IMG/VR virus record: IMGVR_UViG_3300044977_000089
Span: 1 to 33,336 of that record
Source of the DNA: a virus
DNA: 33,336 nt
Direction: 5' to 3' (one strand)
The notes under the pieces are model-generated. The model had not been told where the DNA came from and made no database searches. It saw only the letters and a program-made list of their open reading frames with translations. Positions 3,360-32,155 of this stretch are shown here, piece by piece. Positions within the stretch are counted from its first letter, which is position 1. Every line of letters begins with the position of its first letter. The position numbers were made by a program, and so were the translations under genes.

Positions 3360-3881
3360 CTAATTAAAAGCTTTCACGGCGCACGGATCGCCGGTGTACT
3401 CGCCCAGAAGCGCCAAGTCCTTGAACAGGACGAAAACGACCTCGTCCTTCTCGCCGGCGTCGTTGGTATACGGGACCGGGATCCGGTCCCCCTGGTACTT
3501 GGGCACGCGGACGAAATCTCCGACCCGGCACCACGCGCCCTCGAACCATGTCTCGCCGGTCTTGCGGTCACGGAAGCACCCGTCACCGATCGCCACGACC
3601 TTCGCGACCTGAGTGGCATAGTGCTCGGTGGTCCGATCGTCGGCGGTCAGGATGATGCCACCACGGGTCTTGCGCTTCGGCTGACGGATCTGGACCAGCA
3701 CGAGCTGGCCGAACGGCCGGACGCCGGGGTCGACCTCCGGGAAAGCTTCGGCGATCGAGGCATAGCGGAACTCGATCGCGTTGCCGCTGGCCAGGGTCGG
3801 GGTCGCGCCCGATGGGGTATGCTTGGCTGGCGCCAACTCCGCGACCTCGCGCTCCGTCGCCTTCAGCAGCGCACCGCTCAT
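3360..3881 (-). CDS. GroES-like co-chaperonin domain protein
   Basis: A 173-residue protein whose second half (about 57-165) reads like the Cpn10/GroES fold: FGQLVLVQIRQPKRKTRGGI, then a mobile-loop-like insert, QVAKVVAIGDG, VGDFVRVPKYQGDRIPV and DEVVFVLFKDLALLGEY. These match the beta-strand order of GroES (LGDRVLV, TAGGIVLP, GEVVAVGPG, VGDKVLF, LIVREDDILAV). The first 55 residues are an extra N-terminal arm. T4 Gp31 shows that phages use their own GroES to let host GroEL fold a capsid protein; that role is inferred here from the position next to scaffold and capsid genes. The ATG overlaps the upstream stop (ATGA). Confidence 0.72.
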   Translation of the reverse strand: MSGALLKATEREVAELAPAKHTPSGATPTLASGNAIEFRYASIAEAFPEVDPGVRPFGQLVLVQIRQPKRKTRGGIILTADDRTTEHYATQVAKVVAIGDGCFRDRKTGETWFEGAWCRVGDFVRVPKYQGDRIPVPYTNDAGEKDEVVFVLFKDLALLGEYTGDPCAVKAFN

Positions 3882-17169: not shown

Positions 17170-17428
17170 TCCCAACCCGCGCGTTCCCGCGAAGCCGCTT
17201 CTGCCGGCGGCGCTCCCGCTTCGCCTGCGCCGCCGCGTCGTCGAGCAGATCACGGGTCGGGTCGCGACGGCGCGGGCCCGTCATGCTGCCGTCGGGGTTG
17301 TCGAGCACAACGGCGCCGAACGCGCCCAGCAGAACCTCGGCGGCACTGCCGATAACGTCCACCTTGCGACGCATGGCGCGTCTTGCGACCGCTCGCCCGC
17401 CGACCGCTGGCCCTCGAATGTTGCTCAT
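17165..17428 (-). CDS. Small basic hypothetical protein
   Basis: An 87-residue Arg/Ala-rich protein with ATGA overlap to the GP88-like gene. The central part is hydrophobic and beta-like (SAAEVLLGAFGAVVLDNPDG) and the end is strongly basic (AQAKRERRRQKRLRG). It resembles small nucleic-acid-binding phage proteins in composition only. Confidence 0.55.
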   Translation of the reverse strand: MSNIRGPAVGGRAVARRAMRRKVDVIGSAAEVLLGAFGAVVLDNPDGSMTGPRRRDPTRDLLDDAAAQAKRERRRQKRLRGNARVGI

Positions 17429-18519
17429 GGCGCCTTCCTGTACATGATGCCCGCGGCCTGTCCTGTCGTCAGCCCCAGGTCCGCCGCGACCTCGGCTTGA
17501 CGCTCGCCAGCGCCCACGCGCCGGATGAGCTCGTCGACGATCGAGCGCCCGTAGTTCGCCGTCCGGCCGCCCTTCATGCCGTGGCCGACGAAGACGATGG
17601 TTTCGTTACGAGCCGCCTCGGCCCAGCACAATCCGCAAGTACCGCACGCTTGCGTCTTCTCCGTCTGGGCCGGGCAGACCAAGCCTTCGGCGACCCGCGG
17701 CCCCTCGGGCAGGCGCCAGATCGTCGTCGCGGCAGGGTATGGGTGCGGCCTCTCGTCGTTTCCCGAACGCATGAGTGCGCCGGCTCCCGGGCGGGACGAC
17801 GATGGGTTTTCATCGGACGGGCCGCGCGCCCGCGAAATACCCCGGGAGCCGGATTCTATCGATGTCCTGACCGCGAAGCGGTCCCACCAGAACTCGCGGA
17901 TCCGCGCGACCTCGGCGCCGATCGGGGTCTCGACGCCCCAGTGCGTGTAGCCGAAGATCCGCAAGGCCGGGAACTCGGTCAGCCAGGCGGCCCACTGCCG
18001 CACGTAGGCGACGGAGAAGAAATCGCCCAGTTGGTGAAGCCGGACCACGAAGCCGCGGGCGTGGCGGCGCTGGAGCCGCCGCAACTCGTCCGCCAGCAGC
18101 GGGATCAGGTCACGGTCGGCGGCGACGCGCTTGGCCAAGTGCATGGCGTTTCCAAAGCATTTTTGCCAGAGATCGCAAGACCTCGGGCACGTCGCCCGCT
18201 CCTCGAGCGTCAAGGAGAAGATCGGCATTCCGGCCCAGGCGCCCTTGGTCACGCGCGAGCCGAGCTTGCGCGCGTTGACGCCGCTGATCAGCAGCTCGGG
18301 CGCGTCGCGCGAAGCCCGGACCTGCGACGGGAACATGGTCCTACCCTCGACAACAGCCGGGTGGTCGGCCCGTAGTGCGTGGACTTTGCTGGGTTCGAGC
18401 GGCACGTGGGCATGAAACCGTCTGAGCGCCTTCTGGCCGCGGGCACCGGCCGCGAGGCCTCGGGTGGGTCTGGCCCGCATCGAGCGGCCGACCCGGAATG
18501 TGCTTCGGGCGCCGATCAT
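17425..18519 (-). CDS. GP88-like protein with C-terminal HTH
   Basis: A 364-residue protein. Residues 80-300 resemble the phage GP88 family: KLGSRVTKGAWAGMPIFSLT, TCPRSCDLWQKC (Cys111, 115, 121), VVRLHQLGDFFSVAYVRQW (158-176), LRIFGYTHWG, and a second cluster VCPAQ...CGTCGLCW (Cys282, 292, 295, 298). Seven cysteines suggest metal or Fe-S binding; the reaction is unknown. Residues 325-362 form an HTH-like unit (AEVAADLGLTTGQAAGIMYR). Residues 223-247 come from a palindromic insertion (17780-17852) in low-complexity Ser/Arg/Gly sequence. The ATG at 18519 overlaps the upstream stop (ATGA); earlier in-frame sequence is a shadow. Confidence 0.72.
   Translation of the reverse strand: MIGARSTFRVGRSMRARPTRGLAAGARGQKALRRFHAHVPLEPSKVHALRADHPAVVEGRTMFPSQVRASRDAPELLISGVNARKLGSRVTKGAWAGMPIFSLTLEERATCPRSCDLWQKCFGNAMHLAKRVAADRDLIPLLADELRRLQRRHARGFVVRLHQLGDFFSVAYVRQWAAWLTEFPALRIFGYTHWGVETPIGAEVARIREFWWDRFAVRTSIESGSRGISRARGPSDENPSSSRPGAGALMRSGNDERPHPYPAATTIWRLPEGPRVAEGLVCPAQTEKTQACGTCGLCWAEAARNETIVFVGHGMKGGRTANYGRSIVDELIRRVGAGERQAEVAADLGLTTGQAAGIMYRKAP
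17780..17852. repeat. In-frame palindromic insertion inside the GP88-like gene
   Basis: Perfect 12-base inverted arms, CCGGCTCCCGGG (17780-17791) and CCCGGGAGCCGG (17841-17852), bound a 73-base unit. Inside is a second small hairpin, CGATG/CATCG around GGTTTT. The unit is read in frame and adds Ser/Arg/Gly/Pro-rich residues between the strand AVRTSIES and TTIWRLPEG, where related proteins are expected to continue directly. No second copy was seen in the window. Confidence 0.5.
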
Positions 18520-18704
18520 CCAAGCGCTCTCTGCAGGGCGAGCAGCCGACGAGATAGCGACGGCGGGTTTGGCTCCTGAGCGGCTTTGACTACGGCTCTG
18601 GCCGCCTTCTCGATCGCCAATAGCCGCGTACGTCGCTTGTTGCTGCGTTCGCTGCTGGTCATCGCCCGCGCGCCGAGACAGGGGCGGCCTCGCTTCGCCT
18701 TCAT
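18516..18704 (-). CDS. Small basic protein with AT-hook-like start
   Basis: A 62-residue basic protein beginning MKAKRGRPCLGARAMTSSER. KRGRP is the AT-hook core, and the GRP..G.RAMTS.ER pattern is typical of small phage proteins; the rest is a basic helix (NKRRTRLLAIEKAARAVVKA). It follows GAGGAGCG, and its stop overlaps the GP88-like start. DNA binding is inferred from motif and charge. Confidence 0.6.
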   Translation of the reverse strand: MKAKRGRPCLGARAMTSSERSNKRRTRLLAIEKAARAVVKAAQEPNPPSLSRRLLALQRALG

Positions 18705-18762
18705 CGCTTGCGCTCCTCAGACCGGGGCCTGCCCAGTCGCGAGACCCTTGGTACACCCGAAG

Positions 18763-18792
18763 TTGAATGCGGCGCAAGCGGCGTGATAGGCT
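18763..18792 (+). promoter_or_regulatory. Promoter upstream of the plus-strand gene at 18860
   Basis: TTGAAT (18763-18768) is followed 18 bases later by TAGGCT, preceded by TGA as in an extended -10. The match is partial. It lies in the 155-base gap between divergent genes and would give a leader of about 60 bases with a small upstream ORF. Confidence 0.4.
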
Positions 18793-19421: not shown

Positions 19422-19592
19422 TCACTTCTCGATCTGTTCGACCAGCCATTCGCCAAGCAATCGGCGTCGCGCCTCGCGGCCGGCGCTGTCCACTGGTGTG
19501 TAGAGCCACTTCACGACGTCGGTCGCGGTCGCCGGCGGGGCGCTGGTCGGCATCCCGATGAACTCCGCAAGGGCGCGATCGTCGATCTTCAT
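19422..19592 (-). CDS. Small hypothetical protein, last of the long operon
   Basis: A 56-residue protein starting MKIDDRALAEFIGMPTSAPP at a TGATG overlap. It is helical with an acidic start and Arg-rich end (REARRRLLGEWLVEQIEK). It is the last gene of the leftward run before the terminator. No function recognised. Confidence 0.55.
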   Translation of the reverse strand: MKIDDRALAEFIGMPTSAPPATATDVVKWLYTPVDSAGREARRRLLGEWLVEQIEK

Positions 19593-19909
19593 CAGATGCT
19601 CCGGCGATCGCCGCGCCAGGGCAGGGTGTCGGTATCGTCGTCGGTCGGCGGGGCCTCGATCGGGCCGCCGGGGCCGAGGATCACGGGCCCGTCGGGCGTG
19701 AGCAGGACCTTCCGGTCCAGCGGGACCGGAGCGTCGGAGCCGTAGAGCAGCGTCGCCGCGCCGGTGCAGCCGAACCACGCCGCAGGGCCGGCGGCCAGGA
19801 AGATCGCGATTCCGAGCGCCGTCGAGGCGTGGCGCCTACGCCTCGCCCGCGCACTCCGGCGCAGGTCGAGCGGCATCCCAAGTCGATAGCCCGGCATCCG
19901 TTCGGTCAT
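19592..19909 (-). CDS. Membrane protein, single transmembrane segment
   Basis: A 105-residue protein. I choose the ATG at 19909 because CGGAGGCGGAC precedes it. A basic N-terminus (RRSARARRRRHAS) is followed by one hydrophobic helix (ALGIAIFLAAGPAAWFGCTG), then an acidic Pro/Asp-rich tail (PTDDDTDTLPW), so the tail is probably outside the cytoplasm. It lies just downstream of the Acb2-type gene. Function unknown. Confidence 0.6.
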   Translation of the reverse strand: MTERMPGYRLGMPLDLRRSARARRRRHASTALGIAIFLAAGPAAWFGCTGAATLLYGSDAPVPLDRKVLLTPDGPVILGPGGPIEAPPTDDDTDTLPWRGDRRSI

Positions 19910-19956
19910 GTCCGCCTCCGCCCCCGCTTGGGCGAACGCGCCGTTGACGATGATGT

Positions 19957-20292
19957 TCAAAATCCCTCCGGGCGCGCGATGGCGCGGACTAGCCACATCA
20001 TCGCGGTCTGCAGTTCCGTCTGCGCGATCGCGACGGCCCGCTGGTCAACGCCAGCAATGCCTTTCACCCGGAGGAGAAGCGCCCGAAGCCGCTCGCCCTC
20101 ATCCTTGACCTCGTTGATCAGCGCGATTTCGGCCTCGGTGAGGTCGCGGTAGCCGCTGATCTTCTTGTGCTGGTTGTCGACCATCGTTCTCTCCTGTGGT
20201 TCTCGGCAGATCAAGCATACGCGCCGCTCGGGCGGGATGGGGTTGCTTCGGTCGCCGCAGTCGTAGACGTGCGCATGCCGATCGGTCGTCAT
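19957..20292 (-). CDS. acb2: Acb2-type anti-CBASS nucleotide sponge, with zinc-ribbon extension
   Basis: The C-terminal 75 residues (from an internal ATG at 20184) match the Acb2/Tad1 hairpin family along the whole length: HKKISGYRDLTEAEIALINE, then VAIAQTELQTAMMWLVRAIA ending RPEGF. Acb2 is a small hexameric phage protein that binds the cyclic nucleotides made by CBASS and so blocks abortive defence. The conserved Tyr and Lys I recall as cGAMP contacts are spaced 15 apart here too (Tyr12, Lys27). The frame is open upstream to an ATG at 20292 that overlaps the previous stop (ATGA) and adds 36 residues with a zinc-ribbon look (HVYDCGD...RRVCLIC). AGGAGAGAACG sits just before the internal ATG, so two products are likely. 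Confidence 0.78.
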   Translation of the reverse strand: MTTDRHAHVYDCGDRSNPIPPERRVCLICREPQERTMVDNQHKKISGYRDLTEAEIALINEVKDEGERLRALLLRVKGIAGVDQRAVAIAQTELQTAMMWLVRAIARPEGF

Positions 20293-20432
20293 CTCGTTCC
20301 CTTCCGCCGGAGCGGCTTCTTGCGCTGCAGGCCCTTGGGCTTCGCCTTGCCCGGCGCGGCCTTGGATGCGCCGAAGACGTGCGCCACGCCCCAGTGCCGC
20401 TCCCCGCAGGTCTTGCATTTAGGCGCTTCCAT
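20289..20432 (-). CDS. Very small CxxC protein
   Basis: A 47-residue protein, MEAPKCKTCGERHWGVAHVF and a Lys/Arg-rich tail (KPKGLQRKKPLRRKGTR). One Cys-x2-Cys pair with nearby His suggests half a zinc site. It has TGATG and ATGA overlaps at its ends, which strongly support it as a real gene despite its size. Confidence 0.58.
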   Translation of the reverse strand: MEAPKCKTCGERHWGVAHVFGASKAAPGKAKPKGLQRKKPLRRKGTR

Positions 20433-20650
20433 CACCGCACCTGCGTAGGGGCATCGGCGTCATCGATGCGCCCCTCCATCTCTATGCATGTGAAGGCGAA
20501 CGAGTGACCGGGCGAGACAATCGGCTGGTAGGCCTCGCATAGCTGCTTCGACGCAAACACCTGGATCGTGACCGCCTCCATGGGCGGCTTGCAGTGGTTC
20601 ACCCAGTTGTCGGGCGACTGCAGGCAAACGACGACGAGGACCCAGATCAT
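20432..20650 (-). CDS. Small exported or membrane-anchored protein
   Basis: A 72-residue protein starting MIWVLVVVCLQSPDNWVNHC at an ATGA overlap. The first 10 residues form a short hydrophobic stretch, too short for a full helix alone but signal-like, followed by a domain with three Cys (HCKP, LCEAY, FTCIEME) that could be a disulfide-bonded periplasmic module. Function unknown. Confidence 0.57.
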   Translation of the reverse strand: MIWVLVVVCLQSPDNWVNHCKPPMEAVTIQVFASKQLCEAYQPIVSPGHSFAFTCIEMEGRIDDADAPTQVR

Positions 20651-20799
20651 GCGAAGTGCCAGTAGATGACCACCGCGACCGCCGTCGTGACCGAGCCCAC
20701 GGCCAGCATCAGGGCCTCGAACACCGCCGGGGCGACGACGGCCAGGGCCACGAGGGCCACCGTGACCGCGATCGCGTGGGGCGTGCGGCGGAGCTTCAC
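20647..20799 (-). CDS. Small two-helix membrane protein (GTG start)
   Basis: A 50-residue protein. The GTG start overlaps the upstream stop (GTGA); an ATG at 20856 in the same frame is an alternative. Almost all of it is hydrophobic: AIAVTVALVALAVVAPAVFE and LMLAVGSVTTAVAVVIYW form two helices with a short turn. Small size and two helices would fit a holin or a membrane accessory protein, but no lysis gene is nearby, so it is left unnamed. Confidence 0.5.
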   Translation of the reverse strand: MKLRRTPHAIAVTVALVALAVVAPAVFEALMLAVGSVTTAVAVVIYWHFA

Positions 20800-21050
20800 G
20801 ACGCGGCCTGCCGCTTGGCCAGCCACACCCGATAGGCTTCCTGGTGCTCGGGACACAGGTCCTTGTTGGGCGCCACGGTCTCAGCGTGGTCGGAGCAGAT
20901 CGGACGGTCGCAGGTCTTGCCCTCGCCCATCTTCCAGTCGCAGAGCCGCGTCCCTGGCCGCTTGCACGCCCAGCAGCGGCCACCACGCGGCTTCGGCCCG
21001 CAGACGATCGCGTATCCGCCACCGGGCAATTCCATCGAGCGACAGGTCAT
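20796..21050 (-). CDS. Cysteine-rich zinc-binding protein
   Basis: An 84-residue protein with nine cysteines and two histidines: MTCRSMELPGGGYAIVCGPK, then CWACKRPGTRLCDWKMGEGK, TCDRPICSDHAETVAP and LCPEHQ. The spacing (CxxC, C..C, C..H, C..H) fits one or two zinc sites. The opening MTCRSMELPGGGYAIVCG is a pattern seen in small phage proteins of this type. The start is fixed by ATGA overlap with the HNH gene. Role unknown. Confidence 0.68.
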   Translation of the reverse strand: MTCRSMELPGGGYAIVCGPKPRGGRCWACKRPGTRLCDWKMGEGKTCDRPICSDHAETVAPNKDLCPEHQEAYRVWLAKRQAAS

Positions 21051-21517
21051 GCGTCCTTGGTACGCCTTTCCGCGAGCCCAGGCAATGCCGGGTTGAACGG
21101 AAGCTGGTTCCATTCCGCCTGCTGCACCGCCAGCGGCGTTGGAAGCCGGCCCTTGCCGTCGAGTGCGGATTTTACGGTCTCGACCCGCTTGCGCAGGCGC
21201 CGCTGCGTCGTTCCCTCGGGCGGGATCTCGCCGAGGCGCGCGTGGATCTGCTTCGCCTTCTCGACCTCGGCTTCCGTCGGCCACCGCGGCCCGCGCTCGC
21301 TGTTGCAGTCGGCGTGCGACAGCACCACGCCGTGGCCGTCGTGCGTCCGACGCATCGGGTGCCCGATCGGGTAGACGTGCTCCTTGCTCACGACGAGGCC
21401 GTGCGGATCCTGCTCGCCACGCTCGAGCAGCATCGCTTGGTCGCACAGGAAGCAGAGCCCGTCCTGCGCCTGGAACAGCATCTTGATGTGCCGGGTGATC
21501 TTGGTCCGGGACTTCAT
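21047..21517 (-). CDS. HNH endonuclease-like protein
   Basis: A 156-residue protein. It begins MKSRTKITRHIKMLFQAQDG and has a CFLC knuckle (22-25), the catalytic-type EHVYPIGH (46-53) in place of the usual DH.P, and LSHADCNSERG (66-76), the HNH 'H..CN' end. HNH nucleases cut or nick DNA with one metal ion. The C-terminal half is basic and helical (TTQRRLRKRVETVKSALDGK). In phages such genes may assist packaging or act as free-standing mobile nucleases; here ATGA coupling ties it into the operon. Confidence 0.75.
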   Translation of the reverse strand: MKSRTKITRHIKMLFQAQDGLCFLCDQAMLLERGEQDPHGLVVSKEHVYPIGHPMRRTHDGHGVVLSHADCNSERGPRWPTEAEVEKAKQIHARLGEIPPEGTTQRRLRKRVETVKSALDGKGRLPTPLAVQQAEWNQLPFNPALPGLAERRTKDA

Positions 21518-21750
21518 CGGCTTCGGCGAGCTTTCCAGAGGTCGAGCTTCGCCTGCATGTTCAGGTAGAGCTCCGGCGCGGCGCCGACGAGGCGCCCGAA
21601 GCGCAACGCCATATCGGCCGTCAGCGAACTCTTGCCGGCCAGCGTCGCCGACAGCGCCGCGCGGCTCACTCCCATCCGTCGGCCCGCGGAGGCGATCGGG
21701 ATCTTCAGCTGCTCGCGCATCAGCGCGCCGGGGTGCGACGGCTTTCTCAT
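21514..21750 (-). CDS. HigA-like antitoxin / XRE regulator without a toxin
   Basis: A 78-residue protein matching HigA-type addiction antidotes: KPSHPGALMREQLKIPI, then HTH AGRRMGVSRAALSATLAGKS, MALRFGRLVGAAPELYLNMQ and AKLDLW. In HigBA modules the antitoxin follows a toxin gene of about 90 residues; here the neighbours are a 116-residue protein and an HNH gene, neither toxin-like, so this is an orphan. It may be a regulator, or may neutralise a host HigB. Start fixed by ATGA overlap. Confidence 0.8.
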   Translation of the reverse strand: MRKPSHPGALMREQLKIPIASAGRRMGVSRAALSATLAGKSSLTADMALRFGRLVGAAPELYLNMQAKLDLWKARRSR

Positions 21751-22097
21751 GGCCGCAGCGCCATTCGGGCGACGCGCTGTAGATCACGCGCGAATTCGCG
21801 CCAGCTACCGTCGCTCGCCAGGGTGCTTTCCGGCGAGCCCGCTGGGCGTCCCGCCTCGACCGTCTCGAGCGCCACACGGTAGCGTTCCGCGGCGCTTTCC
21901 GGTCCCGGGATCTTGACCCAGCCGCGCTTCGCCATCTCGCCCTCGGTCATGTGGCCGATCGGCGTCGCCCACGTACCGGCGCCCAGGTGACTGTCGAGGC
22001 GGCACATCTGAACTTGGTTCTGGCTGTCGGCCCACACCGCCCAGCGCTCGCCGGGGCGATAGGTCGTGAGCGTGACCAAGGCATCGCGGAGCGACAT
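21747..22097 (-). CDS. Hypothetical protein
   Basis: A 116-residue soluble protein, MSLRDALVTLTTYRPGERWA start at a TAATG overlap. It has an N-terminal strand-rich half (AVWADSQNQVQMCRLDSHLG) and helical C-terminus (WREFARDLQRVARMALRP). No domain recognised; it does not look like a HigB toxin. Confidence 0.57.
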   Translation of the reverse strand: MSLRDALVTLTTYRPGERWAVWADSQNQVQMCRLDSHLGAGTWATPIGHMTEGEMAKRGWVKIPGPESAAERYRVALETVEAGRPAGSPESTLASDGSWREFARDLQRVARMALRP

Positions 22098-22252
22098 TAC
22101 AAGCCCAGGACGGCGGAGATGATCCCGAGCACGGCGCCCACAATAGCCGGCATGTAGAAGATCGGGCTCGTGACGAAGTCGAACGGATGGACGCCGTAGT
22201 TGCAGATCGGATGCGGACCGTGCTCGCGTCCGCAGCGCTGGCACGGCATCAT
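22097..22252 (-). CDS. Very small zinc-knuckle membrane protein
   Basis: A 51-residue protein: MMPCQRCGREHGPHPICNYG then a hydrophobic segment (IFYMPAIVGAVLGIISAVLG). Cys4, Cys7 and Cys17 with His11 and His14 could form a metal site on the cytoplasmic side of a single C-terminal membrane helix. ATGA and TAATG overlaps at its ends support it as real. Confidence 0.57.
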   Translation of the reverse strand: MMPCQRCGREHGPHPICNYGVHPFDFVTSPIFYMPAIVGAVLGIISAVLGL

Positions 22253-22533
22253 TGAGGAATCGTCTTAGCCAGTGCCTCGGCGACCGCCGCTGCCTTCTTG
22301 CCCAGGTCCTGCGCCGCCTCCCAGGGGTCGCGCCCTTTGCCCGTGTACTCGGCGCCGTCGGCCTTCAGGATGATCTGCACGCCATCGTCTGGGTTGGCCC
22401 AGATCGAGATCTCGCGCCGCTCGAAGAACTTGCGCGCCAGTGGCGCGAGCGTCTCCAGCAGATCCTCGACCTCCTGCCAGGTCCGGTTGGCGTTCCGGCC
22501 CGGCTTCGGGCCGCCCATGATGAGCTTGAGCAT
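22249..22533 (-). CDS. Hypothetical protein
   Basis: A 94-residue protein. The ATG at 22533 is preceded by AAGGAGGTGGAC, an ideal ribosome site. It has a helical, Leu-rich N-terminus (TWQEVEDLLETLAPLARKFF), then strands (EISIWANPDDGVQIILKADG) and a final helix (GKKAAAVAEALAKTIPQ). Function unknown. Confidence 0.6.
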   Translation of the reverse strand: MLKLIMGGPKPGRNANRTWQEVEDLLETLAPLARKFFERREISIWANPDDGVQIILKADGAEYTGKGRDPWEAAQDLGKKAAAVAEALAKTIPQ

Positions 22534-26042: not shown

Positions 26043-26834
26043 TCAGATCAGGACGCCCTGCCGACTGGACGCGAACAGCCCGAGTTGGCCGATCTGCTCT
26101 TGATGCCAGCGGCGCATGTGGTTCTCGCGGTGGGCGACGGAGCAGGAGAAGCGGCCCTTGCTGGCTTCCCAGCGTGCGGCGCGGTCCCATGCCTGACTGT
26201 CCATGGATGTGATGCGAGGATGGCCCGCGAGCACACCGATGGCGCTGCCCTTGACGCCGAAGAGGTGGAGGCCCACGGACTTCGGGAGATGGCGGTCGAG
26301 CGCGGCAATGACCGCGAGCACGCCGTCGTCGCCCCTGAGTGGACGGCGGCAGACTGAGCCGACGCCGACGAGGGCCGGGAGGTCGCCCATCATCTCGGCG
26401 CACACGAGGTAGTCCTCGGGTAGCCATCCCTGGAGGACGGGCATCGGAGGCTTGACGCCCTGGATCTCGGCCTCGTCGCGGTTGCGCTCGAGCATCATGG
26501 CGGTCTCGAGGACGCGCCGGGCGACCTCGTCGCGGTCACGGGCGATCTGGGGCTCGCAGCAGAAGTCCATCGCGGCCCACCACGTCCATGGGTGCGAAGC
26601 CGCGAGCGCGACATACTCGGCCTGGGTCCAGGGGTAGCCGCGATATCGGAACATGGCGACAAAGCCGGCGCTGTCGAGCGCGACGTCGGCGCCGTGGAAC
26701 AGATCGGCCGACGGGCGCCAGAACTTGCCGTCGCGGCGGAACGCGTTGGCGCTGACCAGGATGGGCGAGCCGAGCGACTTGGCGACGCCGGAGAATCGGT
26801 TAAAGCAGGCCGGGATGCCGAGGCGGACGATCAT
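26043..26834 (-). CDS. dpdA: DpdA-like 7-deazaguanine DNA-modification transglycosylase
   Basis: A 263-residue TIM-barrel protein related to tRNA-guanine transglycosylases in the form used for DNA. Signature parts: ILVSANAF; GADVALDSAGF (48-58, the substrate-pocket Asp region); AMDFCCEPQIARDRDEVARR (88-107); MPVLQGWLPEDYL (131-143); LVGVGSVCRR (155-164); LHLFGVKGSA (189-198); ITSMDSQAWDRAARW (208-222). DpdA enzymes swap guanine in DNA for preQ0 or related bases and protect phage DNA from restriction. No queC, queD, queE or folE lies in the window, so the base would come from the host or from genes elsewhere. A -10 box ends 8 bases before the ATG; no Shine-Dalgarno. Confidence 0.75.
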   Translation of the reverse strand: MIVRLGIPACFNRFSGVAKSLGSPILVSANAFRRDGKFWRPSADLFHGADVALDSAGFVAMFRYRGYPWTQAEYVALAASHPWTWWAAMDFCCEPQIARDRDEVARRVLETAMMLERNRDEAEIQGVKPPMPVLQGWLPEDYLVCAEMMGDLPALVGVGSVCRRPLRGDDGVLAVIAALDRHLPKSVGLHLFGVKGSAIGVLAGHPRITSMDSQAWDRAARWEASKGRFSCSVAHRENHMRRWHQEQIGQLGLFASSRQGVLI

Positions 26835-28806: not shown

Positions 28807-29210
28807 CGGCGGTGGAGCGCAAGCGCGGCCGGGACCTCCACCACGTCGACGAGCACATCGGAGCCAAACTCCGGGAGCGGCGGCTGATCCTGGGCTTGAG
28901 CCAGGAGGCTTTCGCGGCGAAACTCGGGATCACGTTCCAGCAGGTCCAGAAGTACGAGAAGGGCCGGAACCGGGTGTCGTCGAGCATGCTGTGGCTGGTC
29001 TCGGACGTGCTCGATGTCACGCCCGGGTACTTCTTCGAGGGGCTGGGTGACCGCGCCTCGCCCCCGATCACGGGCGGGGGCGGGTCCTATGCCAGCGAGC
29101 GCGTCATCCTGGAGCTCGCCCGGCACTTCGCCACGCTCGAGCCGGACCTGCAGCGGAGCGTGTTCTCGCTGGTGAAGGCGATGGCGCGCGCGGCGAAGGC
29201 TGCGTCATGA
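28803..29210 (+). CDS. XRE-family HTH regulator (GTG start)
   Basis: A 135-residue protein. The GTG at 28803 overlaps the upstream stop (GTGA). The HTH is GAKLRERRLILGLSQEAFAA, KLGITFQQVQKYEKGRNRVS, and continues SSMLWLVSDVLDVTPGYFFE, typical of phage and alphaproteobacterial XRE regulators. The C-terminal helical part (SERVILELARHFATLEPDLQ) probably mediates dimerisation. It may regulate its own operon including the methyltransferase; target sites were not identified. Confidence 0.88.
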   Translation: MTAVERKRGRDLHHVDEHIGAKLRERRLILGLSQEAFAAKLGITFQQVQKYEKGRNRVSSSMLWLVSDVLDVTPGYFFEGLGDRASPPITGGGGSYASERVILELARHFATLEPDLQRSVFSLVKAMARAAKAAS

Positions 29211-30328
29211 TACGATCAGCCTATTACAACGAGATCGACCCCTATGCCGCGCAATGGCTCCGCAACCTCATCGCCGCCTGTCACATCGCCCCAGGGGACG
29301 TCGACGAGCGTAGCATCGTCGATATCAGCGCATCCGACCTTGCCGGGTATGGACAATGCCACTTCTTCGCCGGCATTGGCGGATGGTCCTACGCGCTCCG
29401 CCTCGCTGGATGGCCCGACGATAGACCCGTCTGGACCGGCTCCTGTCCATGTCAGCCGCTTTCGAGCGCGGGACAGCGGAAAGGCCATGCCGACGAACGA
29501 CACCTCTGGCCCGCTTTTCACGCGCTCATCGCCGAGTGCCGGCCTGCAACGGTCTTTGGAGAGCAGGTTGCGGGCGCGCTTGGACGTGAATGGCTCGCCG
29601 GTGTTCGCGCTGACCTGGAAGGCGATGGATATGCCGTCGGGGCTGCCGATCTGTGCGCTGCGGGCGTCGGGGCGTTCCACATCCGGCAGCGGCTCTATTG
29701 GGTGGCCGACGCCGCAGCAGCACGACGCGGCGACGCCGAAGACGCCGGAACAGGTAGAGGCATCGAAGGCGCGCGCAAAAAAGCGCAAGAACGGTGGAAC
29801 GGCGGGATACCGGAATCTAAACGAGGAAGCGCAGCAAGTCGGCTGGCCGAGCCCGCAGTCGAGGGACGGGGCGCACAGCCGGAGCGGCCAGATCGAGCGG
29901 ACGGGCGGGCGACGCAGGAACCTCGACGACTATGTGACGCTCGCGGGATGGGCGACACCAGCAGCTCAGGAAGCTGGCGGAACGCCGGAGCAATTCCTGG
30001 CCCGCAAAGAGAAGGCGATAGAGAACGGTGCGAGCCTCGGCATGTCGCTGACGAGCCTGTCGCTGCAAGTGGCGGCATGGGCAACGCCAGCGCAGGAGCG
30101 CGGCGGCTCGACCAAGGGCGAGCAACTCAACAATCAGGTCGTTCACCATGGGCAGATGCCGAGTGGATCGACTGCCGCGACGGCAAGCGCCGGCCAGTTA
30201 AATCCGGCCTTCAGCCTCTGGCTCATGGGGTTCCCGCTCGAGTGGGAAAGCTGCGCGCCGCCGGCAACGCGGTCGTCCCGCAGGTTGCCGCCAAGTTCGT
30301 GACCGCTTTCATCGAGTGCCAACCATGA
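29207..30328 (+). CDS. dcm: DNA cytosine-5 methyltransferase
   Basis: A 373-residue C5-cytosine methyltransferase. Motif I is HFFAGIGGWSYALRLAGW (52-69), motif IV the catalytic GSCPCQPLSSAGQRKG (78-93; Cys82), motif VI VFGEQVAG where ENV is replaced by EQV, motif VIII IRQRLYWVAD (159-168), and motif X GNAVVPQVAAKF near the end. Between VIII and X is a long, low-complexity Gly/Arg/Asp region with repeated VADA/MGDT/MGNA units. It methylates cytosine in a specific site, target unknown, and probably protects phage DNA from restriction. Coupled to the XRE gene (ATGA). An alternative frame stays open over almost the whole gene. Confidence 0.85.
   Translation: MIRSAYYNEIDPYAAQWLRNLIAACHIAPGDVDERSIVDISASDLAGYGQCHFFAGIGGWSYALRLAGWPDDRPVWTGSCPCQPLSSAGQRKGHADERHLWPAFHALIAECRPATVFGEQVAGALGREWLAGVRADLEGDGYAVGAADLCAAGVGAFHIRQRLYWVADAAAARRGDAEDAGTGRGIEGARKKAQERWNGGIPESKRGSAASRLAEPAVEGRGAQPERPDRADGRATQEPRRLCDARGMGDTSSSGSWRNAGAIPGPQREGDRERCEPRHVADEPVAASGGMGNASAGARRLDQGRATQQSGRSPWADAEWIDCRDGKRRPVKSGLQPLAHGVPARVGKLRAAGNAVVPQVAAKFVTAFIECQP
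29244..30302 (+). CDS. Overlapping ORF inside dcm, dual-coding candidate
   Basis: A 352-residue frame open across the methyltransferase gene, shifted by one base. It has repeated GWPTP-like units (IGWPTPQQHDA, VGWPSPQSRDG, AGWATPAAQEA, AAWATPAQERG) and ends QLNPAFSLWLMGFPLEWESC followed by Arg/Ser-rich residues. The closing motif resembles ends I know from methyltransferase-linked phage proteins. No separate ribosome site is clear. It may be a second gene product, or a shadow created by the repeated VADA codons in the main frame. Confidence 0.3.
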   Translation: MPRNGSATSSPPVTSPQGTSTSVASSISAHPTLPGMDNATSSPALADGPTRSASLDGPTIDPSGPAPVHVSRFRARDSGKAMPTNDTSGPLFTRSSPSAGLQRSLESRLRARLDVNGSPVFALTWKAMDMPSGLPICALRASGRSTSGSGSIGWPTPQQHDAATPKTPEQVEASKARAKKRKNGGTAGYRNLNEEAQQVGWPSPQSRDGAHSRSGQIERTGGRRRNLDDYVTLAGWATPAAQEAGGTPEQFLARKEKAIENGASLGMSLTSLSLQVAAWATPAQERGGSTKGEQLNNQVVHHGQMPSGSTAATASAGQLNPAFSLWLMGFPLEWESCAPPATRSSRRLPPSS

Positions 30329-30528
30329 GACCGTACTTTCTCCGCCAACGGCGCCCCGTCTCGGTCGCGGTGCGGCGCCGTCGACGGCGCCACGCGGTCA
30401 CGCTGGGCGAGCTCGGGTGGGAGATCGCGGAGCGCCGGGTCGAGCGCATCCGGGCTCCCGCGCTCGCGGCCGGCGGGCTCGCGGCGTGGTACGTGGGGTG
30501 GCAGCTATGGCGTTGGTGGTCGCTGTGA
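30325..30528 (+). CDS. Small basic membrane protein
   Basis: A 67-residue protein starting MRPYFLRQRRPVSVAVRRRR at an ATGA overlap with dcm. A very basic N-terminal part is followed by one short hydrophobic, Trp-rich segment (LAAGGLAAWYVGWQLWRWW) at the C-terminus. Its last 24 bases overlap the end of the convergent radical SAM gene. Function unknown. Confidence 0.57.
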   Translation: MRPYFLRQRRPVSVAVRRRRRRHAVTLGELGWEIAERRVERIRAPALAAGGLAAWYVGWQLWRWWSL

Positions 30529-31356
30529 TTTTGCGTGGATGATCTTCGGGCGGGCCCACTGCCGCTGAAAGGCTCGCCACTCTGGCCCGGGTGCATGCCG
30601 TTCCTGTGACGGCGTGTCCGGGCGCCAGAGCATCGCCATCGGCGTGAAGCCGATCCCGACCATGTCCCTCAGACGCTTCTCGGCAAGCTCGAACGTGTCC
30701 TTCGGGTAGCCGATCATCACGTAGGCGCGCAGCCGGTGGGATTCGCGCGTGAAGCCAGCAGCCAGCAAGCGGCTGGCGGCGCTCTCCAGCGTCTCGAAGG
30801 CGTCCTGGGGATCGTAGGCGAAGAAGCAATTTGGCCTGGGCGTCAGGCCCGCGAGCAGGTCGACCTGATAATCCTGGAGCGCCAGCGCCTCGAGCCCGCC
30901 GGTGAACTGGACGCGCCCGGGTTGCCGGCGCAGCATGGCGAAGACGGCTTCGACGTGCGGCCTGGGGCAGGCCAGCAGATTGTCGTCGAGGATGTTGTGC
31001 CCGTCGGGGAAGTCCGGGATCGGCGTGGCGGCGCCGAGCCGCTTCCAGACGCCGCAGAACCAGCAGCGCCGCGGACAGCCGCGCGAGGTGAAGGTGTAGC
31101 CGGGCTTGATGTAGAGCCCTGGCGTGAACGCGAGCTCGTAGCTGTCTTTCTCGTAGGCCGGGCCGCCGAGTTTGACCGGCGCGACCCAGCGCCATTGCTC
31201 CGCCAAGCGTTCCGCCTCCGCCATGTCCTGGCTGAACGTGACCGAGATCCTGACCTCGTCGGCATAGACGGTGAGATCGGGCGGTCCGACCCAGGCCAGC
31301 GGGTCGTCGGGCGTCGCGCGGGTGCGGCGCGGGAAGACGCGGATCAGCCTAGACAC
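30505..31356 (-). CDS. Radical SAM protein (GTG start)
   Basis: A 283-residue protein with a radical SAM core: FTSRGCPRRCWFCGVWKRLG holds the Cys94-x3-Cys98-x2-Cys101 cluster that binds the [4Fe-4S] and S-adenosylmethionine. Before it, residues 1-85 form a region with a shortened B12-domain feel (LTVYADEVRISVTFSQDMAE). After it come barrel strands (RVQFTGGLEALALQDYQVDL; LRAYVMIGYPKDTFELAEKR). The GTG overlaps the stop of the PP-loop gene. Such enzymes use a radical to methylate, thiolate or rearrange substrates; the substrate here is unknown. Next to modification genes, a role in making a modified base is a reasonable guess. Confidence 0.78.
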   Translation of the reverse strand: MSRLIRVFPRRTRATPDDPLAWVGPPDLTVYADEVRISVTFSQDMAEAERLAEQWRWVAPVKLGGPAYEKDSYELAFTPGLYIKPGYTFTSRGCPRRCWFCGVWKRLGAATPIPDFPDGHNILDDNLLACPRPHVEAVFAMLRRQPGRVQFTGGLEALALQDYQVDLLAGLTPRPNCFFAYDPQDAFETLESAASRLLAAGFTRESHRLRAYVMIGYPKDTFELAEKRLRDMVGIGFTPMAMLWRPDTPSQERHAPGPEWRAFQRQWARPKIIHAKSQRPPTP

Positions 31357-32155
31357 CGCAGACGCCGTCGCACTCGTTGGTGAAGAGGTTGAGCTGGCCG
31401 CGGTCCTCGGCGGTCGAGAAATCGACATCGGCGAGCGGCGTCCGGCTTGCGTGGACGAACCACCGCTCGCCCGCCGGTCGGCGTGGTCCTGGCATACCGG
31501 GGCGGATCGCCTCGTCGACCACGATCGCGTCGGCGAAGGCGTCAGGATCATTGAGCTTCATGTCGCGCCATTGCTTGGCATCGTGATACGGGCAGAAGGT
31601 GCATGCGCTCTTGGGTGGCGTGGGGAAGCCGTGAGCCTCGCACCAATCGATGCAATGCCGCCTCGCCATGCCGGCTTCGATCAACGGCCACCGGTGCTTC
31701 ACGAAGGGGAGCCACGACGGCTTGACGCGCCACGCCTCGTCGGTCGAGATGCCGATCCACTGATCGACTAGGATGGTTTTCGGGTTGCGCTGCCGCGGGC
31801 GCAGACCCACGAGCTCGCGGACCTTGCGTTCGATGGGGATGATCTTGAAGTCTTGGGTGCACTGGCGATTGAGCATGCCGCCGTCGAGCGTGAAGAAGGG
31901 CGGGCGCCCGTTCGTCTTCGCGGTGCCGTTCATGGAGCCGATGATCTGAGCCCGTAGACTGCCGGCCGTAACCCGGTGAACCGGGAACGGCAGTTGACGC
32001 TCGAGCCAGTCGAGATGGCGGTACACGCTCTGCGGCTCGCTCTGCGTGTCGGCGAAGATCGCGCAGTCAGGCATCGGCCCGATCTCGTCGGCGGCGGCCA
32101 TTAGCGCCATGGTGGTCGACTGGACGCCGGCGCCCAGCGATATGACCCTAAGCAT
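31349..32155 (-). CDS. PP-loop / PAPS-reductase-like protein
   Basis: A 268-residue protein starting MLRVISLGAGVQSTTMALMA. SLGAGVQST (6-14) is the PP-loop variant that binds the ATP pyrophosphate. Further family signs are IFADTQSE (33-40), MLNRQCTQDFKIIPIERKVR (94-111), where PAPS-reductase relatives have R.CT..yK..P, and ACTFCPYHDAKQW (184-196), a Cys-x2-Cys near the substrate site. Members activate substrates with ATP for thiolation, amidation or DNA sulfur chemistry; the phage group has no firm function. Coupled to the radical SAM gene by an 8-base overlap. Confidence 0.75.
   Translation of the reverse strand: MLRVISLGAGVQSTTMALMAAADEIGPMPDCAIFADTQSEPQSVYRHLDWLERQLPFPVHRVTAGSLRAQIIGSMNGTAKTNGRPPFFTLDGGMLNRQCTQDFKIIPIERKVRELVGLRPRQRNPKTILVDQWIGISTDEAWRVKPSWLPFVKHRWPLIEAGMARRHCIDWCEAHGFPTPPKSACTFCPYHDAKQWRDMKLNDPDAFADAIVVDEAIRPGMPGPRRPAGERWFVHASRTPLADVDFSTAEDRGQLNLFTNECDGVCGV

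Follow-up and report, generated by a model that had tools for sequence, protein, structure and literature searches.

The window analysed here is the whole of IMG/VR record IMGVR_UViG_3300044977_000089, a stretch of 33,336 bases. Its acb2 gene is read from the minus strand, as a long frame of 111 residues and a stop that runs from 20292 to 19957. An earlier note, made from the sequence alone, had placed a frame at 19957-20292; those coordinates are right, and to them we add the strand, the plus strand of the same interval being closed by a stop. The long frame has two parts. The last 75 residues, termed the ‘core’, begin at an inner ATG at 20184; the 36 codons before it, termed the ‘extension’, begin at an outer ATG (20292-20290) that shares bases with the TGA (20291-20289) of a frame of 47 codons, forming ATGA. 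The same note had described such a start, overlapping the previous stop and joined to the core through 36 residues, and this is indeed what the sequence contains. The segments it singled out, HVYDCGD...RRVCLIC, GYRDLTEAEIALINE and TELQTAMMWLVRAIARP, are all found in the 111-residue frame. The open frame reaches beyond the outer ATG, as an ORF of 153 residues from 20418 on the same strand. CxxC motifs occur elsewhere in the run of genes to which acb2 belongs: CKTC in the 47-aa gene, CWAC in the gene at 20796-21050 and CFLC in that at 21047-21517. The features of the locus are collected in Table 1. The upstream gene has no family match, and the downstream gene has no Pfam match.

Table 1. Features of the acb2 locus, by position in the window
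Feature	Position	Strand	Description	Basis
acb2 core	19957..20184	-	75 aa; predicted canonical Acb2/Tad1 hairpin protein	PF24729, 8h2j match
Extension	20185..20292	-	36 in-frame codons, from outer ATG 20292 to the core; this virus only	Sequence
ATGA	20289..20292	-	Stop of the 47-codon frame and outer start codon	Sequence
AGGAGA	20190..20195	-	Predicted ribosome-binding site for the inner start, within the extension	Duplex energy
Small upstream gene	20289..20432	-	47 aa; one CKTCG motif	Codon usage supports coding
Small downstream gene	19592..19960	-	Same run; TTG start overlaps the acb2 stop as TTGA	

The virus is represented by a second IMG/VR record, 3300037235_000080 (45,551 bases), which is identical to the window over the 21,626 bases compared. 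This record supports the sequence and, being the same virus, carries no evolutionary information; with no substitutions, it was set aside as a comparative test of the extension. A terminase search, which reaches close relatives only, found no phage besides this second record, and megablast of positions 12000-33336 against the phage collection gave no match. Owing to these results, we have no relative close enough for a test of selection on the 36 codons. The closest annotated portals, 41% identical, are those of the Caulobacter phages GB2A, RW, RLK and KcrB.

Several other genes of the window can be assigned to families. A DpdA-like protein (26043-26834, minus strand; PF23859, E 2e-18) suggests 7-deazaguanine modification of the phage DNA. 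On the plus strand, 29207-30328 encodes a C5 cytosine DNA methyltransferase (PF00145; phrog_363, E 2.1e-79), whose gene overlaps that of an HTH regulator through ATGA. On the minus strand, at 30505-32155, a radical SAM protein (phrog_9298) adjoins a phosphoadenosine-phosphosulphate-reductase-like protein (phrog_424), possibly a metabolic or modification pair. Also on the minus strand are a GP88/DUF7227 protein of unknown function (17425-18777; PF17338 and PF23872), an HTH protein that resembles plasmid antitoxins (21514-21750; phrog_1381, E 4.8e-13) and, close to the genes for portal and head, a Cpn10 (GroES-like) domain (3360-3881; 35.1 bits, with a cut-off of 21.1). The Cpn10-like protein has a relative (58%) in L033, a related phage contig with a portal 39% identical to that of the window. 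In L033, acb2 comes directly after this Cpn10-like homologue, near the portal, unlike acb2 of the window; its position thus varies within the phage group.

The core certainly matches the Acb2 family beyond chance. The Pfam profile PF24729 (Acb2/Tad1 hairpin), with a curated cut-off of 27 bits, finds the core with 70.4 bits (E 1.5e-19) and the 111-residue frame with 68.9 bits, and no other Pfam family matches either core or extension at E up to 10. The earlier note had assigned the last 75 residues to this hairpin family and proposed a profile search as a check; the profile bears the assignment out, and the predicted fold and the pocket residues agree with it. In the PDB, the sequence matches Acb2 p26 (8h2j, E 1.4e-13; 8ixz, E 3e-13) and, more weakly, T4 Vs.4 (7uq2, E 2.3e-4). 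AlphaFold, given the long frame and an alignment of 79 sequences (the query and 78 of 96 reference sequences), predicts two helices, at residues 53-77 and 84-106, with pLDDT values of 89-98 (means of ten-residue blocks). The model thus has the arrangement that marks Acb2, a short N-terminal segment followed by a pair of long antiparallel helices, and its top Foldseek match is Acb2 8h2j (E 1.7e-4), with T4 Vs.4 ranked behind. The query TM-score to 8h2j is 0.48, the unfolded extension being included in the count. The short N-terminal helix described for Acb2 in PMC12043709 is absent from this model of the long frame.

Four residues of the core, Y12, K27, R49 and T56, are kept in 78, 78, 77 and 77, respectively, of the 79 aligned sequences. 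We take the pocket residues of the Acb2 of Pseudomonas phage PaMx33 to be Y11, K26 and R67. By PDB alignment, with an inferred offset of one residue in the 7uq2 chain, Y12 corresponds to Y8 of the T4 protein, and T56 to T68. In T4 Acb2, the Y8A substitution disrupts binding (PMC12657218; PMC12657230), T68M lowers affinity (PMC12657230) and F82 stacks on the ligand (PMC12657218). The position of F82 is occupied by alanine in the window protein, and likewise in all 79 aligned sequences. By profile, predicted fold and pocket residues, then, the 75-residue core is an Acb2 protein. Taken alone, the gene from 20184 very probably specifies a canonical Acb2 sponge, the activity and the translation of which we infer.

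Where Acb2 genes begin was compared across the family. A tblastn search, run at E 0.01 against the phage collection, returned 232 records, and ten among the 60 listed were taken for comparison; an alignment-based scan found at least 559 relatives in viral contigs and 125 in genomes, and 80 were kept from each. Altogether 175 loci were examined. Four of these hold the same virus, and the comparison set is the other 171, some of which are near-duplicates. At 170 of the 171, a start codon stands at core residue 1 or 2 (ATG at 156, GTG at 13, TTG at one). A Shine-Dalgarno-like tetramer precedes the core start at 147, and at 129 an in-frame stop lies no more than 36 codons upstream of the core. The window gene conforms to this pattern, for its inner ATG at 20184 opens the sequence M(V)[DE]NQH that is characteristic of Acb2 starts and has a ribosome site of its own, AGGAGA.

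Sequence resembling the extension occurs at none of the 171 other loci. Fifteen have an ATG-started, in-frame upstream stretch of at least 20 residues, and at seven an ATGA in frame with the core stands 20 or more codons before it; by these counts, genomes of this kind often have open frames upstream. The most similar core among the loci compared, that of L018, is 66% identical, and in the 6.2 kb around the L018 gene no other window protein is found. A stop between the two parts in close relatives, with only the short form conserved, had been named in advance as evidence against the fusion. Only the short form is, in fact, conserved among these 171 loci, but none is a close relative, and so the comparison says that the extension is not a feature of the family; it does not say that the extension is unreal in this phage.

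The extension includes three cysteines and two histidines. Its candidate ligands (H6 or H8, C12, C26 and C29) are spaced as H-x3/5-C-x13-C-x2-C, with a single CxxC pair and no predicted fold. The combination of a CxxC pair with two more Cys or His residues, a pattern picked post hoc with the extension sequence already known, occurs at a rate of 0.8% among random open frames, and 32 of the 3,146 open 36-mers of the window contain it. Chance alone would not usually yield either the ATGA coupling or this post hoc Cys/His pattern. The earlier note went further and proposed a zinc ribbon, which our results do not support: no Pfam or PHROG family confined to the extension was found at E up to 10, and AlphaFold assigns the extension no secondary structure and block means of pLDDT of 47-55. 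The extension has no alignment depth, and this disorder says little because it has no homologues.

Searches with the extension itself, and near-matches beside other acb2 genes, led to several candidate relatives, of which we rejected all but a short frame in L181. With tblastn, the 36 residues gave one match among phages, at E 7 (MT835911), which reads as unrelated; it is part of a longer open frame, and has neither an ATG start nor a CxxC there. With blastn, the 108 bases gave 16 phage records, all with less than 80% of the query covered, of which the ten listed have E values of about 4. Four DNA patterns taken from the extension were scanned in viral contigs. Two match this virus only; the other two, CLICREP and HVYDCGD, match this virus and eight other loci, and these eight contain no similar peptide and no significant acb2 match (best E 2.5). 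A Thiohalocapsa phage match (H1), in which tblastn covers 100% of the query, has a stop ten codons before its MENQH start and more stops farther upstream. Matches to JBD67-like phages begin at residue 18, and the upstream frame of JBD67 lies within another gene and is unrelated. At L046, the sequence RRCARCREPD just before acb2 is in a different frame, within an ORF of 256 residues that we read as a predicted transglycosylase; the score of this locus, 40, is the best among the 171 and equals the 95% point of the shuffled controls.

One of the eight loci found by these patterns, L181, has in its viral contig a short frame (684-881) ending in VCFICREPVKKK, which is similar to the end of the extension. 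A term search of the main text of PMC11722364, a weak test, found neither ‘zinc’ nor ‘N-terminal extension’. Among the 171 other loci compared and in the searches made, the extension is seen in this virus only.

The best PHROG match of acb2 is phrog_717, a family of unknown function. Its profile has 289 positions, with Acb2 beginning near position 199, so that some 198 positions precede the Acb2 part and the last 90 or so represent it. Because of these preceding positions, some members of the family may carry other N-terminal additions in their annotation. The match to the long frame begins at residue 28, inside the extension, at profile position 189, and scores 76.4 bits, 4.4 more than the 72.0 of the core alone. 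We do not regard this as homology of the extension, since in ten other long or natural frames the match begins at positions 153-200, also over unrelated upstream sequence, and in three of 11 records it runs across a stop. No match before position 153 was found in these ten frames or in ten records (JBD67 is in both).

Whether the extension is translated can be judged from the junctions, the ribosome sites and the codons. Genes were called with a simple caller of our own, not a published one, which gives 62 in the window. In the minus-strand run at 19422-22533, the ten other junctions are all -4 or -1; the junction before acb2 is exactly -4 with the outer start, and a gap of 104 bases with the inner. 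Same-strand gaps of 90 bases or more are found at 9 of the 54 such junctions in the window, which makes a non-coding gap before acb2 possible. ATGA stands at 22 of the 62 gene ends, or 21 if that of acb2 is excluded, and at 17 of these 21 the start of the next gene was called. The number rises to 18 when 29207 is added, where the caller took another frame and the alignment to the DNA methyltransferase PHROG begins at residue 1. At the remaining ATGA ends, two of the frames are open for 76 and 87 codons, neither with a family match, and one for four codons.

The strong ribosome site that had been claimed before the internal ATG is there. With a generic anti-Shine-Dalgarno sequence, AGGAGA forms a duplex of -7.4 kcal/mol; the outer site, at -6.2, is not far below, and the gene-caller scores of the two starts are likewise close (inner 47.1, outer 45.7). 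Two products are plausible because the frame continues to a coupled ATG and also contains a good internal site. Were the long form the sole product, an inner site with so strong a ribosome sequence and the start usual in the family would hardly have been kept; this favours the short form, made either by itself or together with the long one. The zinc-ribbon fusion with two products that the earlier note envisaged is possible; of its parts, the two products are plausible, and the zinc ribbon is without support here and the extension without a counterpart at the 171 loci.

Codon usage in the extension is equivocal. Across the 108 bases, none of the other five frames reaches the codon score of the acb2 frame. 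At 0.00 bits per codon, compared with 0.19 in the core, synonymous usage in the extension is neutral, a value as low as that of 3.5% of true coding stretches and as high as that of 4.9% of off-frame ones; for the full codon score, the corresponding figures are 3.1% and 1.0%. At this G+C content, chance alone would leave 36 codons open with a probability of 0.42, and the openness of the extension, by itself, is not more than chance.

We interpret the gene as the acb2 of a tailed phage, one of a series of small genes closely packed on the minus strand. Acb2 is a hexamer with distinct sites for dinucleotides and trinucleotides (PMC12043709), and the core from ATG 20184 should, judging from its sequence, form such a hexamer and sequester CBASS signals, binding cyclic dinucleotides in pockets around the conserved tyrosine of the family and cyclic trinucleotides at the trimer interfaces. 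With these signals sequestered, the host effectors are predicted to stay off. Ribosomes that finish the 47-codon gene would probably also initiate at the overlapping ATG at 20292, read through the 36 codons into acb2, and so generate a second, 111-residue form, while the internal site would keep producing the normal 75-residue sponge. The likeliest origin would be that a small gene or leader lying upstream lost its stop and was thereby fused to acb2, which would explain how a peptide with a coupled start comes to run into an acb2 that has kept a start of its own. An effect of the extension on ligand binding is conceivable, because it would join residues beside the conserved pocket tyrosine. 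The statement as a whole, an Acb2 sponge together with a second, N-extended product from a fused upstream stretch, is one towards which we lean, without firm conviction.

A simpler account, which we regard as possible but somewhat doubtful, is that ordinary Acb2 alone is made, from 20184, and that the 104 upstream bases are a non-coding spacer, or a decayed gene, in which the frame is open by accident. The inner start at 170 of the 171 other loci, and the lack of a similar extension at all of them, favour this. So do the 42% chance of openness, the 15 loci with ATG-started stretches and the seven with an in-frame ATGA, the weak codon usage of the 36-codon stretch, and L046, where a CARCREP motif beside acb2 has arisen within a different long ORF, in another frame. 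On the other hand, ATGA overlaps with gene ends mark real starts in this phage, a gap of 104 bases is out of place in the run at 19422-22533, and about one open 36-mer in a hundred shows a Cys/His pattern of this kind. Two further accounts are versions of the reading in which the long form is made, and their probabilities overlap with it. The ATGA coupling, the internal ribosome site, and a peptide with neither fold nor homologues would all suit a translated leader. In this version, the 36 codons would serve only to bring ribosomes from the upstream gene to acb2 and adjust how much of it is made, while the residues themselves would do nothing and the long form would arise incidentally. Coupling needs no 36 in-frame codons, however, the run mostly uses direct -4 overlaps, and the Cys/His pattern is left to chance; we consider this version rather unlikely.

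That the long form contains a functional zinc module, folded around one zinc (H6 or H8, C12, C26 and C29), and that this alters the sponge (e.g. its ligand choice, assembly or partner binding), is improbable, given the want of a family match, the disorder in the AlphaFold model and the restriction to one virus. The ligand pattern, found in about 1% of open 36-mers, and the CxxC motifs in other proteins of the run are the points in its favour. Most elaborate, and in our estimate very improbable, is the two-product reading in which the normal sponge is accompanied by a long form with a metal-binding module beside the dinucleotide pocket. Mixed hexamers, or a metal- or redox-sensitive form, would then tune which signals are captured, or let the sponge evade guard systems such as Panoptes, which are set off by Acb2.

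Whichever products are made, the gene contributes an Acb2 from a phage group for which the closest annotated portals (41%) come from Caulobacter phages. If, as we are inclined to think, the sponge is accompanied by the long form, the latter would be a variant Acb2, the only one with such an N-terminal extension among the loci compared (171 others), and would offer a natural test of whether the surface beside the Acb2 pocket tolerates an extension with function kept. An extendable surface at this place would matter, since Acb2 has to contend with CBASS on one side and Panoptes on the other (PMC12657218). Should the long form not be made, the locus is a caution that, in G+C-rich phages, frames are often open upstream of the true start.

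Among known systems, Tad1 shares with the window protein the name of a Pfam hairpin family (PF24729). In Tad1, an N-terminal beta-sheet precedes the two helices (PMC12043709); the AlphaFold model of the window protein has no strand, so that this mark of Tad1 is missing, and in the short form only 10 residues precede the hairpin match. T4 Vs.4 (7uq2) has the fold and family of the window protein, and its Y8 and T68 are the counterparts of Y12 and T56, but the similarity in sequence is weak (E 2.3e-4) and the position of F82 is alanine in the window protein. The likeness to the Pseudomonas phage Acb2 (p26; 8h2j, 8h2x and 8ixz) extends to the hairpin family, the (M)DNQHKKI start and the pocket residues, and the ends of the two proteins are similar. 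The window protein differs in its shorter inter-helix loop (75 versus 93 aa overall), and its frame differs in the in-frame upstream extension, which the 8h2j chain lacks. Beetrevirus JBD67 has an Acb2 of the same family, with a long loop insertion and an upstream frame that belongs to another gene and is not homologous to the extension. The JBD67 gene nevertheless starts at the same place, with MDNQHRK, and likewise overlaps the gene that precedes it, by one base.
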